DNA from: Halorhabdus amylolytica | GTDB lineage: Archaea > Halobacteriota > Halobacteria > Halobacteriales > Haloarculaceae | Direction of reading: 5' to 3' | Assembly: GCF_004944975.1 (NCBI RefSeq) | Contig: NZ_SPQG01000006.1 | Location: 86,860 to 150,859 of the forward strand | DNA length: 64,000 nucleotides | Part shown: positions 1,357 through 54,775 of the stretch, piece after piece | How positions within the stretch are numbered: the first letter of the stretch is position 1 | Layout: each line of letters opens with the position of its first letter | Notes under the pieces: generated by a model | The model's input: only the letters and a program-made list of their open reading frames with translations | The model's database searches: none | Told to the model about the DNA's origin: nothing | Program-made: the position numbers and the translations under genes

Positions 1357-2004
1357 TCAGCGATCCGCACAATACTCGACGAAGTTCCGGAGGATGCGAA
1401 GGCCGGCGTCGCCCGACTTTTCGGGGTGAAACTGTGTTCCCATGACGTTACCCGCCTCGTTGGCGACGACGCTGGCGAAGTGCTCGCCGTAGTCGGTCGT
1501 GGCGACGATCGCAGCCGGATCGTCCGGCCGGGCGTAGTAGGAGTGGACGAAGTAGGCGTGTTCCCCGTCGACACCGGCGACCAGCGGGTGGTCGCGTTCG
1601 ACTGAGAGTTCGTTCCAGCCCATGTGTGGGACCTTCCGATCGCCGTTGAATCGGAGGTTCGTTCCCGGGATAAGGTCCAGTCCCTCGACGTCGCCCTCGC
1701 CGGCATGTTCGGCCTCCTCGCTGTCGGTCAACAGCATCTGCATGCCGAGACAGATCCCCAGCAACGGCTTGCCGTCCGCGGCGGCATCGAGCAGGACATC
1801 ACGGAACGGGCCTGCGTTATCCATCCCCTCGCTGAACGCCCCTACCCCCGGCAGCACGATCCCGTCGGCGGCGTCGAGATCGGCCGGGTCGTCCGATATC
1901 TCGACGTGGGCGTCCGCGCGTTCGAGCCCGCGCGTGACACTCCGGAGATTACCCAGTCCGTAATCGAGGACGACCACCTCGGCGGTCGCCTGGCGCTCGG
2001 TCAT
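1357..2004 (-). CDS. hisH: Imidazole glycerol phosphate synthase, glutaminase subunit HisH
   Basis: HisH hydrolyses glutamine and passes ammonia to HisF to make imidazole glycerol phosphate and AICAR, in histidine and purine metabolism. The 215-residue protein is a class I glutamine amidotransferase: nucleophile C85 in GICLGMQ, then H193 and E195 in QFHPEKSG. The N-terminal DYGLGNLRS and the PHMGWN segment are typical of HisH. hisF is not in this window, as is usual for haloarchaea, where his genes are scattered. It is monocistronic here. Confidence 0.97.
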   Translation of the reverse strand: MTERQATAEVVVLDYGLGNLRSVTRGLERADAHVEISDDPADLDAADGIVLPGVGAFSEGMDNAGPFRDVLLDAAADGKPLLGICLGMQMLLTDSEEAEHAGEGDVEGLDLIPGTNLRFNGDRKVPHMGWNELSVERDHPLVAGVDGEHAYFVHSYYARPDDPAAIVATTDYGEHFASVVANEAGNVMGTQFHPEKSGDAGLRILRNFVEYCADR

Positions 2005-27476: not shown

Positions 27477-27920
27477 AGTAGATCTAGGCGCACGTATTCT
27501 GGGACTCACAGATGCATCTCGGTCTGTGCCAGAACCTCGTGGCCAACCCAGGCGCACGGAGTTTCGCCGTCGACTCGACCGCGAGCGGACATCCCCTGGA
27601 ACACAAGCATCGCGCTCGAATCCGTGACCTATCTCTCGAGCGGATCAGTCGCGGGGCTGGGGCGCGTCCTCCACTCGAACGTCCGGGTCCTCGTGGTGTC
27701 TTTCCGGACGCCATCGGCCTTAGCTGGATATAGGCGCTAAGCCCCTACCCTCAAGGAGCGAACGGCGTCAGCCGTGAGCGAGTAGGGTAGTTCACTCCCC
27801 TCGATGCCACTGCCAAGTCGGTCAGTGAACCGGTGTTGCTGGTGAGGAACACGAATATGCTTTGGCGGTCGGAAGCTTGATCCGGTGTATCACGATGTCG
27901 CTGCCACACCAGTGCCGTCG
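27477..27920. other. Non-coding stretch with a transposon-end remnant
   Basis: No gene is supported in these 444 bases. The centre, about 27746-27795, matches the right end of the IS1341-type element at 54661-54770. The right part, about 27800-27920, precedes the amylase stop codon and shows nothing recognisable. Confidence 0.5.
27746..27795 (+). mobile_element. Solo right-end remnant of an IS1341-type element
   Basis: The sequence GCGAACGGCG, then GCCGTGAGCGAGTAGGG, aligns with the end of the tnpB element at 54671-54755. Only TCA separates the two parts here, where the full element has about 58 bases with two hairpins. CTACCCT and AGGGTAG flank the piece as an inverted repeat. No transposase part remains. 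Confidence 0.65.
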
Positions 27921-41706: not shown

Positions 41707-42978
41707 TCAGGATTGCAGGTGTTCCAGCACTGCGTCGGTGTCGGCGGGGACCGGTTCGGGTTCAGTACCCGCCTCGACGGCGGCGTCGGGGTCTTTCAGG
41801 AGATGGCCGGTCGTCAGACAGACTACCCGTTCGTCCTCGTCGACGACGCCCCGATCCCGGAGTTTCCGCAGGCCGGCTATCGAGGCGGCTGAGGCGGGTT
41901 CGACGCCGATCCCTTCTTCGGCGAGCGTGCGCTGGGCGTCGGTGATCTCCGCATCGCTGACGGCGACGGCGGTCCCGTCGGTCTCCCGGATCCCCGGCAG
42001 CGCTTTGGGCGCGTTGACCGGGTTGCCGATCCGGATCGCGGTCGCCTTCGTCTCGACGTCGTCCCAGCGCTCGATGTGATCCCAGCCTTCCTCGATGGCC
42101 TCGACCATCGGTGCCGAGCCCTCGGCCTGGACGCCGGTGAGTTTCGGGATTTCGTCTTCGTCGATCGCACCGCTGGCCTCGAGTTCTCTGAATGCCTTGT
42201 ACAGCGCTGCGGTGTTGCCCGCGTTGCCGACCGGCAGGACGATCCGATCGGGAAAGCCACCCTCTTCGGCGTCGAACTGCTCCATGATCTCCAAGCCGAT
42301 GGTCTTCTGACCCTCCAGCCGGAAGGGGTTCAGCGAGTTCAGCAGGTAGGCCTCGCCACGATCGGCGAGGTTCTGGACGATGTCCAGACACCGATCGAAG
42401 TTGCCGTCAACTTCCAGAATCCGTGCGCCGTGGAGGCTCGCCTGTGCGATCTTCCCGGCGGCGACCTTCCCCTCGGGAAGGAGGACGAGTACCTGCAGTC
42501 CAGCCCGTGATCCGTAGGCCGAAAGCGCGGCGGAGGTGTTCCCCGTCGAGGCACAGGCCAGCCGATCCACGCCGACCTCCTGGGCGACCCGGACGCCGAC
42601 GGTCATTCCGCGGTCCTTGAAGCTCCCCGTCGGGTTCATCCCCTCGTGTTTGACTCGCAGGCGCTCGACGCCGATCTTGTCTTCGAGTCGTGGCACCTCG
42701 TGCAGCGGGGTGTTGCCCTCCGGGAGCGTCACTCCCGTGTTGAAGGGGAGTGCCGCACTGTACCGCCAGACACCGCCGTGGAACGCCGTCCCCTCGTCCC
42801 CGAAATTCTCGAAGGTCGGCAGATCGGCGTACCGGACTTCGAGCAGTCCTCCACAGTCGTCGCAGGTGTAGCGGATCCCCTCGAAAGGCGCGAAGGTCTC
42901 GCCGCACTCGATGCAGGTCAGCCAGACGCCGTCGGTCGCCGCGGCCGGTTCGTCCTGCGTGATCTTCAGGTAACTCAT
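41707..42978 (-). CDS. thrC: Threonine synthase
   Basis: The enzyme makes threonine from O-phosphohomoserine with PLP. The 423-residue protein has an N-terminal zinc ribbon (CIECGETF, CDDCGG), the PLP lysine in NPTGSFKDRGM, the STGNTSAALSAYG segment, and the phosphate-binding PVGNAGNT. This is the class with an N-terminal zinc ribbon often found in archaea. A run of VapBC genes lies upstream in the opposite direction. Confidence 0.96.
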   Translation of the reverse strand: MSYLKITQDEPAAATDGVWLTCIECGETFAPFEGIRYTCDDCGGLLEVRYADLPTFENFGDEGTAFHGGVWRYSAALPFNTGVTLPEGNTPLHEVPRLEDKIGVERLRVKHEGMNPTGSFKDRGMTVGVRVAQEVGVDRLACASTGNTSAALSAYGSRAGLQVLVLLPEGKVAAGKIAQASLHGARILEVDGNFDRCLDIVQNLADRGEAYLLNSLNPFRLEGQKTIGLEIMEQFDAEEGGFPDRIVLPVGNAGNTAALYKAFRELEASGAIDEDEIPKLTGVQAEGSAPMVEAIEEGWDHIERWDDVETKATAIRIGNPVNAPKALPGIRETDGTAVAVSDAEITDAQRTLAEEGIGVEPASAASIAGLRKLRDRGVVDEDERVVCLTTGHLLKDPDAAVEAGTEPEPVPADTDAVLEHLQS

Positions 42979-52807: not shown

Positions 52808-53318
52808 GGGTACTGTGAGCTGTCGGGTGAACGATGACCGCCCCGAAACCCGACGGTGGGCGGCGATGAAAGCGATGCGAAACCGGTCTGGATGTGGATA
52901 TATTCGGGCCTAACGGCCCGGTCGTCGTCGGAGAAGGGAGACGGACCCGCCGGTCCCGAACACGCTCGCGCCGGACCGGTGGATCGGCGTCATGTACCCC
53001 GGAATATCCGGCAAGCGGTACTAATATCTTCCGGGTTTCTGTTGAAAGCTTCAATTCAGATTGAAGAGCGGAATCGAACAATCTGGCGAGTGGTCAGCAG
53101 TTTCGAGGCGGAGCCTCCGGCCTCAAGAAGCGAGGACTTCCGACGACAGTCGGAAGGACGACGTGAGTAGGCCGGAGAGGACAGCGAGGCGCTACGCGCC
53201 TCGGGCCGTGCGAGCGGGCGGAGCCCGCGCGCAGAAGCCGACAACCCCGAAACATACCACGGACTGTTGCCGCCCTTTCTCCCCAACGCTGATAAACTAC
53301 CAGCCATACATCTGACGT
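52808..53318. other. Intergenic region: argG promoter and hairpin block before tnpB
   Basis: GAATATATCC on the minus strand (52896-52905) is a likely TATA box for argG, with a leader of about 65 bases. At 53049-53066 is a perfect inverted repeat CTTCAAT-TCAG-ATTGAAG. From 53105 to 53228 follow four short perfect hairpins. No gene is supported. Confidence 0.55.
53105..53228. repeat. Block of four short perfect hairpins upstream of tnpB
   Basis: Hairpins: GAGGC-GGA-GCCTC (53105-53117); CTTCCGAC-GACA-GTCGGAAG (53137-53156); CGAGGCGC-TAC-GCGCCTCG (53185-53203); GCGGGC-GGA-GCCCGC (53214-53228). The flanks of the last (CCGTGCGAGCGGGC, then GCAGAAGCCG) resemble those of the hairpin at 54714-54730 in the downstream end of tnpB. 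The block may be a right-end remnant of another element. Confidence 0.75.
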
Positions 53319-53900
53319 ATGGAGGTGCGGCGTACTGTCCCGGTGAAACTCGACGTGGACAGCGACGACGCCGCACTTCTCCGCGAGACAGTCGATGAGT
53401 TTCTATGGGCTGCCAACTACGTCGTTGACCACGCTTGGCAAGGCAACTACAAGACCACAAGCAAGGTCCAGTTGCAGGAGGAAACCTACGACGACGTGCG
53501 CGACCGGACCCGGTTACACGCGAATCTCGTCCAGAACGCCCGCAACAAGGCCGCCGACGCCGTACAGGGCGTCGTTGCTCGTTGGAAGCAAGGTGAGTAT
53601 GCTGGCAAACCACACTTCTCGAAGCCGACCGTTGTCTACGACAAGCGGTGTGCGACCTTCCACGACGACCATGTTTCCCTCGCCACGATAGACGGACGCA
53701 TCGAAGCCCAGTACGTCCTACCAGACGGCGGCCGCGACACACCTCACAGTCGGTATCTCGACAACGACGACTACGGGGTGACGGGGGCAGAACTCCACAA
53801 CAAGGACGGCGAGTGGTTCCTTCATCTCCGCACAAAGGCGGAGGTGGAGTCGGACACGCCGGAGCAGGCAACGACCGAGCACAGCACAGTCCTCGGCGTT

Positions 53901-53956
53901 CACAAGAGCGAAGCTCTTGTGCAGCCCATCAGAAATCGAAGATTTCTGAGGACGTT
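53901..53956 (+). repeat. 56-bp twin-hairpin insertion in tnpB
   Basis: It contains CACAAGAGC-GAA-GCTCTTGTG (53901-53921) and TCAGAAATC-GAA-GATTTCTGA (53929-53949), both with perfect 9-bp arms and a GAA loop, 7 bases apart. CGTT occurs on both sides (53897-53900 and 53953-53956) and may be a target duplication. Confidence 0.85.
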
Positions 53957-54559
53957 GACCTCGGTGTGAACCAACTCGCGGTCACGTCAACGGGCACGTT
54001 CTGGAGCGGGAACGAGTTCGACCACTGGCGACGGGAGTACGAGAAACGCCGAGCCTCACTCCAACGGTGTGGCTCACGTCACGCTCACGAGAACATCCAA
54101 GCGGTCGGTCGCAAGGAGACGGGTCGGTTCAAGATGATGCTCCACCGGATTGCGAACGGCATCATTGAGGAAGCCGTCGAGAACGGTTGTACGGTCATCG
54201 CCTTCGAGGAGTTGACCGGCATCCGCGACCGCCTATCCGGTGCCTCGTGGGGGCACAAGTGGGCGTTCGAGCGGTTGTACGAGTACGTCGAATACAAGGC
54301 CGAACTCCACGGTATCGACGTGGAGCAGGTGGACCCAGAGAATACATCACGCCGTTGTTCACACTGTGGGTTCACGCACCCAGACAACCGCGACGGCGAG
54401 GACTTCGAGTGTCTGAAATGCGGCTACGAGAACCACGCCGACTACAACGCCGCCAAGAACATCGGCTTGCGGTATCTCCGCCGTAACCAAACTGGGGACG
54501 GCGGAGGCGCACCCGTAGGCGTGTGCTTGAATCGCGGGACGTTGAACGCGAACGGAGAG

Positions 54560-54775
54560 TATGAACCTCCTGCCGAAGATTTCGGCCAGAGCGGGAGTCC
54601 ACGCGAAAGCCCCAGTGGAGGCTCACAGCCTCCACGTCGTCAGACCTCGTCTGACGGAACCCTCAACGAAGCGAACGGCGATAGCGCGGAACGAAGTTCC
54701 GCGGACCATTCGAGCGGGCCTGCGGCCCGCGAGAAGAAGCCGTGAGCGAGTAGGGTGGGGTAGTTTACAAGACGT
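54560..54775 (+). ncRNA. Possible right-end (omega-type) RNA of the tnpB element
   Basis: TnpB systems use a guide RNA overlapping the 3' end of tnpB and the element's right end. Here that region has four perfect hairpins: 54615-54635, 54638-54656, 54685-54703 and 54714-54730. This is position-based inference; two of the hairpin pairs may be later insertions, in which case the RNA may not work. Confidence 0.3.
54615..54730. repeat. Two further twin-hairpin units in the tnpB tail
   Basis: Unit one: GTGGAGGCT-CAC-AGCCTCCAC (54615-54635) and CGTCAGA-CCTCG-TCTGACG (54638-54656). Unit two: CGCGGAAC-GAA-GTTCCGCG (54685-54703) and GCGGGCC-TGC-GGCCCGC (54714-54730). Unit two is absent from the matching remnant at 27746-27795, which joins its flanks with three bases. 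Confidence 0.85.

Follow-up and report, generated by a model that had tools for sequence, protein, structure and literature searches.

What are the paired hairpins that crowd around and within one tnpB gene of the haloarchaeon Halorhabdus amylolytica, and can they move? The gene lies in a 64,000-nucleotide stretch of contig NZ_SPQG01000006.1 that we analyzed in full (hereafter "the window"). It belongs to an IS1341-type element at 53.1–54.77 kb, with the left end near 53.1 kb and the right end near 54.77 kb. A preliminary description of this DNA had listed ten short perfect hairpins there, arranged as five similar pairs, and had proposed that they represent a mobile unit defined by its structure. 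We located each of the ten hairpins in its place. The features are given below with their window coordinates and strand. A caret marks a point of insertion, and labels beginning with L and G denote loci and genomes, respectively.

53105..53117, + strand: pair 1, first hairpin; conserved left end of the element, with the same or nearly the same sequence in L034, L060, L063, and L033
53137..53156, + strand: pair 1, second hairpin; variable left-end hairpin, with a variant in L063 and L060 and none in L034
53182..53235, + strand: pair 2; unit C, 54 nt, target GGA^, right end CAGA^
53319..54745, + strand: tnpB (IS1341-type), frame broken by unit A; Pfam OrfB_IS605 and Cas12f1-like_TNB
53899..53954, + strand: pair 3; unit A, 56 nt, target GGCG^, right end GACG^
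54615..54659, + strand: pair 4; 45-nt twin-hairpin insert at GCCCCA^CCCTCAAC
54682..54737, + strand: pair 5; unit C, 56 nt, in the loop of the right-end hairpin (AACGGCGA^AGCCGTGAG)
27761..27786, + strand: right end of a second element without unit C (AACGGCGTCAGCCGTGAGCGAGTAGG); empty counterpart of pair 5

Of the two Pfam matches in tnpB, TNB scores above the cut-off and OrfB_IS605 slightly below it.

Hairpin pairs are concentrated at the tnpB element

The hairpins in the window are genuine and non-random. All four pairs of adjacent perfect hairpins in the 64 kb that have arms of at least 8 and a gap of no more than 30 nt fall within the 1.6-kb region, compared to a mean of 0.1 (maximum 1) in first-order shuffles of the window. 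When arms of at least 7 are allowed, there are seven pairs in the window, five of them within the region, compared to 0.25 in shuffles. The preliminary description had suggested shuffled sequence as a check, and hairpin pairs are indeed far more common in the window. Single hairpins with arms of at least 8 number 22, versus 7.3 in shuffles. Pairs 2 to 5 fold as drawn when treated as single-stranded DNA, with z values from -4.0 to -5.9. The sole other such cluster in the window, at positions 42351–42414, consists of three successive hairpins with arms of 7.

Four of the five pairs are absent from related elements

Among relatives of the element, the second hairpin of pair 1 is replaced or absent, and a clean empty site for it was not seen. 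Pair 1 is mostly the element's own left end and not a mobile unit of this kind. Pairs 2, 3, 4, and 5 are inserts that are present in some elements and absent from others, with clean empty sites in related elements. The site of pair 2 is empty in L034 (GAGAGGA^AGCCGAC) and L063 (GAGGA^AGCCGAC) and filled in L060 and L062. The two hairpins of pair 3 (53901–53921 and 53929–53949) occupy a site (GTCCTCGGCG^TTGACCTCGG) that is empty in L061, L062, L063, and L065 and filled at the identical base in L033, L034, and L040. Removal of the 56 nt from 53899 to 53954 restores the peptide VLGVDLGVNQ and a single open frame from 53319 to 54745.

The site of pair 4 is empty in seven loci (L027, L040, L059, L060, L061, L063, and L065; nine with duplicate fetches). 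In L009 the site holds a homologue, also of 45 nt, whose hairpin 1 has different arms; the insert in L062 is a 53-nt twin hairpin of unrelated sequence. Pair 5 is absent from L021/L004, L053, and the other right end in the window at 27761. Its empty site is less exact than the others because the loop bases of the compared ends differ.

Both insertions that had been named in the preliminary description are therefore borne out, namely that pair 3 interrupts tnpB and that pair 5 is missing from the end at 27761–27786. The search for empty sites in relatives, which it had proposed, also gave clean ones for pairs 2, 3, 4, and 5. Its view of five alike pairs stands for pairs 2 to 5 as inserts (with pairs 2 and 4 going beyond what it had claimed) and fails for pair 1, the conserved left end. 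Likewise, the sequences differ between pairs for the most part, with the exception of pairs 2 and 5, which are two copies of one family (unit C) and are 70% identical over 40 nt. The left end of L033 upstream of tnpB (no more than 260 nt before position 926) also carries a unit C-like copy, at a third position where the related window element has none.

Unit A is a dispersed family with covarying hairpin arms

A blastn search with one copy of unit A gave matches in 73 of the 146 genomes of the host's family, and a covariance model built from 18 copies gave matches in 132 of them. In an evenly drawn sample of the phylum, 19 of the 24 genomes belonging to the host's order had unit A, compared to none of 124 genomes outside it. 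These whole-genome counts come from model searches, and match counts include reverse-strand half-unit matches and are not copy numbers. Pair 3 itself scores 86.9 bits (E = 2.7e-25) with a model for which it was among the 18 building copies. Searches of phages and of IMG/VR, the latter with a strict pattern, gave no match to the units.

Across 72 distinct copies of unit A, 99.5% of stem cells are paired and there are 191 double (compensatory) changes, a level that none of the shuffles approached (42 in shuffles), in an alignment that was fitted to the model and is biased toward structure. The unfitted first set of 18 copies agrees (100% paired, 35 double changes). When partner columns are slid by one to three positions, pairing falls to 40–48%. 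There are very few G-U pairs, and the stems are almost always closed by C-G, with GNA or TNC loops. Such triloops make up 55 of 72 and 57 of 72 in unit A, versus 103 of 428 background triloops. C-GNA-G is an unusually stable DNA triloop. The rarity of G-U pairs and the C-G-closed GNA and TNC loops are as expected if constraint acts on DNA hairpins.

Each stem of unit A has 8–9 bp, begins with CAC or TCA, and carries a loop mostly of 3 nt, and the linker between the hairpins reads CAGCCCA or TCGCACA. The loops have opposite polarity, C(GNA)G in hairpin 1 (51 of 72) and mostly C(TNC)G in hairpin 2 (39 of 72), and the outer ends are inverted (CGTY...RACG), making unit A a head-to-head pair. The tag is CGTT in 67 of 72 copies and the right end is GGACG in 64 of 72. 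Entropy is 0.5–0.6 bit in the arms, 1.0–1.4 in the loops, 0.5 in the linker, and 0.2 at the right end; the arms vary, yet the framework is conserved as well. Outside the arms, conservation within the family lies in the CGTY...GRACG ends and the linker.

Homologues of unit C occur in 81 of the 146 genomes. Between families (A, C, D, and the 45-, 51-, and 53-nt units), only the shape is common. The notion of a unit defined by structure is upheld by the covarying arms and by this sharing of shape alone between families. Within a family, however, the terminal tag, linker, right end, and most arm positions are kept, so "structure alone" is too strong there. One unit A copy, in L054 (about 1504–1625, minus strand), has a twin-hairpin unit from a different family nested exactly within its linker; the nested unit follows GCAG and ends in ACAG.

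Unit A occurs at many unrelated places, inside genes and in intergenic DNA. Copies adjoining tnpA or tnpB make up 13 of 30 in a set found by similarity to a tnpB-side copy and about 3 of 40 in multi-copy genomes (two self-matches discounted); the latter figure indicates that most copies lie elsewhere. Many copies (L038, L042, L044, L190, L192, L193, L197, L215, and L227–L235) have the common context CTTTTTC..(A, G, or C)ACG^TTTTT; this has the look of a further repeat, dispersed between genes, that serves as a target.

Units follow short targets and form tandem arrays

Nearly all of the 72 unit A copies follow an NNCG^ target (GGCG in 29, GACG in 19, CACG in 7), and the unit ends in GACG. Its empty sites are exact, and a 2-nt duplication of CG would look the same as a target that equals the right end. 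For unit C, the target is GA in most copies and the right end is AGA. Unit D, as it occurs in IS605 loops, is without matching target and right ends.

In genome G277, L279 carries two units at the place where L284 carries one, and the second unit begins immediately after the GACG^ of the first. Unit A-like copies are arrayed head to tail in L278, L279, and L281 of this genome, two or three at a time, with three in L281. The right end of one unit can therefore be the target for the next.

Insertion sites of unit A lie inside a hairpin in 31% of cases, compared to 21.5% of control CG sites, which is a weak difference. For unit C the values are 67% versus 19% with arms of at least 5, with little difference at arms of at least 6 and with some sites double-counted, and a preference of unit C for hairpins is suggestive only. 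The guide-sequence rule for REP cleavage sites (PMC8266576), applied by hand to the targets of units A and C, gave no consistent match.

An IS605 transposon carries filled and empty sites

A scan with the Y1 transposase of the window's genome returned 80 loci, most of them haloarchaeal and named. The IS605 that we examined has an identical palindrome at both ends (CCTCGGGG-cttga-CCCCGAGG) and seven unit sites: the LE loop, the RE loop, the tnpB C-terminus, and four in tnpA. Most copies have no unit at these sites, and the others carry one that fills the site precisely; this named transposon gives the best test of gain and loss. The LE loop is filled in about 8 and empty in 54, and the RE loop is filled in 9 and empty in 43. 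The tnpB C-terminus is filled in 6 (two with unit A, four with unit D) and empty in 43, excluding a false pattern match in L111 (tree labels carry 7, and the true filled count is 6). The tnpA sites at nt 57, 64, 156, and 206 hold units of 45, 51, 54, and 54 nt, respectively, and the type of unit at a given site is nearly always constant.

Loci with units inside tnpA: L095, L113, L117–L120, L123–L125, L127, L134–L136, L139–L141, L143–L145, L149, L157, L158, and L160

On a tnpA tree of 67 sequences, the filled rows are scattered. For the four tnpA sites, the numbers of filled rows and changes are 4 and 4, 8 and 6, 13 and 11, and 3 and 3, where the changes are upper estimates from a quick tree with many weak forks and may be gains or losses alike. 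Elements that are about 97–98% identical can differ by a unit. L090, L095, and L123, which are about 96–99.6% identical over most of the element, differ at one spot, where the first has unit A, the second no insert, and the third unit D. Together with L056, they form a single supported tnpA group of close relatives with different unit sets. What the preliminary description had observed is thus confirmed and its mobile-unit idea largely holds, in that a two-hairpin unit with covarying arms comes and goes as a whole and leaves many clean empty sites.

Alternative explanations for the presence/absence pattern

The scattered presence and absence could arise from recombination between element copies or from precise deletion. 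The main rival builds on this and holds that units rarely enter each site, with the pattern made by gene conversion among transposon copies and by slippage deletion at end repeats of 2–4 nt. It would suit the constancy of type at IS605 sites (nearly always 45 nt at tnpA 57, 51 nt at 64, and 54 nt at 156 and 206), as well as the short direct repeats at the unit ends (CG with CG, GA with GA). We nevertheless consider it unlikely, given that unit A is found at many unrelated places, that one site holds A, D, or nothing in near-identical elements, that the pair 4 site holds two unrelated units, and that tandem copies exist.

Still less probable is an origin as terminal-only PATEs, that is, IS605-type ends fused after loss of the core and moved by the TnpA of the parent. 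Terminal-only PATEs of 52 bp, formed by two fused near-terminal palindromes, are recorded for Haloquadratum (PMC3119063). However, the LE and RE palindromes of the examined IS605 are unlike the unit hairpins, and a longer element with unit ends was not found. A comparison with parental ends, covering one IS605 type at about 60 loci and a sample of other TnpA subfamilies, found no unit hairpins at true ends such as would mark an IS200/IS605-derived MITE. The mode of insertion is that of such MITEs, 3' of a short fixed target, without duplication and with a precise empty site.

The inserts within tnpA raise the idea of intron-like or bypassed sequences that are removed at the RNA or translation level, which would leave tnpA and tnpB functional. 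Of the 27 tnpA inserts, 25 have a length that is a multiple of 3 (45, 51, or 54 nt) and preserve the frame, and the remainder of tnpA is mostly open. Eight of the inserts at nt 156 carry an in-frame TGA in a tnpA that is otherwise mostly intact and has the usual third-position bias after the stop. This idea has very little probability in our view: unit D is likewise 54 nt long where it lies outside genes, the 56-nt unit A frameshifts tnpB, and third-position bias can predate a recent insertion. Units inside tnpA and tnpB do bear on how transposons are switched off or tolerate inserted peptides.

It is hardly credible that the pairs are simply normal structural components of the transposon ends (LE/RE hairpins or TnpB omega RNA). 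This holds for the first hairpin of pair 1, and pairs 4 and 5 lie where we presume the omega RNA to be, which counts in its favor. For pairs 2–5 it is refuted by their empty sites: the sequence of related ends continues uninterrupted where pairs 2, 4, and 5 are lacking, and unit A also occurs inside genes and in intergenic DNA.

A proposed insertion scheme and the search for a transposase

The explanation that we favor, and hold to be somewhat probable, is that these hairpin pairs are non-autonomous haloarchaeal mobile units, REPIN-like twin hairpins, that insert by the scheme proposed here with an HUH Y1 step. The scheme draws on what was observed directly: the shape and its covariation, precise presence and absence, repeated use of sites, short fixed targets, and tandems. 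A unit, about 45–57 bases long, consists of two hairpins of 8–9 bp with loops mostly of 3 nt in head-to-head order. Unit A is bounded by a short inverted tag (CGTY...RACG), and its two hairpins are joined by a linker that is short and conserved. A unit would insert behind a short target (NNCG^, mostly GGCG or GACG, for unit A; GA^ for unit C). The right end would repeat the last target bases, with other bases neither gained nor lost, and as the right end GACG is a target in its own right, units could be added head to tail. The arms would be free to change when both sides change together because recognition would fall on the hairpins. A single-strand transposase (HUH, Y1 TnpA-type) supplied in trans would cut and join the units, and IS605-type elements may be frequent hosts because of their single-stranded DNA passage.

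Movement by an HUH Y1 transposase is our best guess, by analogy to what has been proposed for REPINs and is known for IS200/IS605. The hairpin pairs, the lack of target duplication beyond 2–3 bases, and the exact empty sites argue for it. Y1 TnpA (PF01797) was found in 95 of the 146 genomes, with a weak trend by hand count (89 of 132 genomes with units and 6 of 14 without). No Y1 was detected in the unit-rich genomes G016, G051, G052, G003, G039, and G029. Only seven of 40 TnpA loci have a unit model match within a stretch of 2.4–5 kb, and consistent flanking of any Y1 type by units was not found among these 40 loci, a set drawn from genomes with a detected Y1. Furthermore, a half-unit search revealed no unit split by a gene and no autonomous element with unit ends. 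An enzyme that was lost after the units spread, or one outside PF01797, would fit equally well, and many unit copies may be relics.

A bolder proposal, possible but doubtful, is that one haloarchaeal activity moves sequence-unrelated twin-hairpin units by their folded shape, with each family having its own short target. If true, mobility would be inherited by shape and the arms could diverge freely. The units offer a test case for whether transposase specificity can reside in shape and not in sequence, and this question is directly testable because the arms covary.

Integron attC sites are recombination sites that are recognized as a folded single strand and not by sequence. The units have no G^TTRRRY junctions and are not filed as attC members.

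Comparison with known hairpin repeats

We found no paper in the open-access literature that describes haloarchaeal twin-hairpin units. The preliminary description had called a mobile unit defined by structure new to its author. Precedents exist, however: variable stems with compensating changes are also a feature of the paired hairpins in CGTC-tagged REP dimers and in REPINs (PMC3733652, PMC3116915), and the SMR/PATE elements of Haloquadratum behave alike (PMC3119063).

The closest known system is that of the CGTC-tagged REPs and their head-to-head dimers, including Rickettsia RPE-4/RPE-6 (Di Nocera 2013, PMC3733652). These are found mostly as head-to-head dimers, lie in genes as well, and have no known transposase. 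The shared features are outer tags (in unit A, CGTT at the left and CGTC at the right on the other strand), stems of 8–9 bp, a mostly head-to-head order, often as heterodimers, in-frame intragenic copies, some copies within palindromes, and the lack of a dedicated transposase. An unpaired CGTC tag on the outside of head-to-head dimers is found for unit A only; unit C is without it. Unlike the CGTC-tagged REPs, which have loops of 4–5 nt, the haloarchaeal units have loops mostly of 3 nt, no 3-nt CCA tail, stems whose first two positions are not A-T, more variable arms, and short fixed spacers (about 2–12 nt). Because of the differences in loop length, tail, and first stem bases, we did not file them as members of this group, whose published families are bacterial, with archaea named only in the reference list of that paper (PMC3733652).

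The REPIN/RAYT system (Bertels and Rainey 2011, PMC3116915; TnpAREP, PMC8266576) likewise has an inverted hairpin pair as the moving unit, compensatory changes, and loss as a whole, and a REP with an 8-bp stem and a 3-nt loop is known from S. maltophilia. Opposite hairpin polarity is present in most copies of the units. The differences are that the tag is CGTY and not GTAG, that no RAYT lies beside the haloarchaeal units (40 TnpA loci), and that the paired hairpins are not copies of each other. If the mobile-unit reading is correct, REPIN-like mobile hairpin pairs would extend to Archaea and to most genomes of an order, and many named elements would provide clean comparisons of filled and empty states.

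Among haloarchaea, the nearest parallel is with the SMR-A and PATE elements of Haloquadratum walsbyi (Dyall-Smith 2011, PMC3119063). Like the units, these elements have no transposase and no target duplication, and they strongly prefer IS605-type elements and PATEs, palindromes included. The SMR-A families, with the named sequences HqIRS42/43/55, share features without sequence similarity, as the haloarchaeal units do. The published SMR-A elements are about 110 bp long and have terminal inverted repeats, and no twin-hairpin shape is mentioned for them in the passages we consulted. The units are a candidate explanation for these "enigmatic" SMR elements. A tandem double unit, at about 114 nt, comes near the 110 bp of SMR-A.
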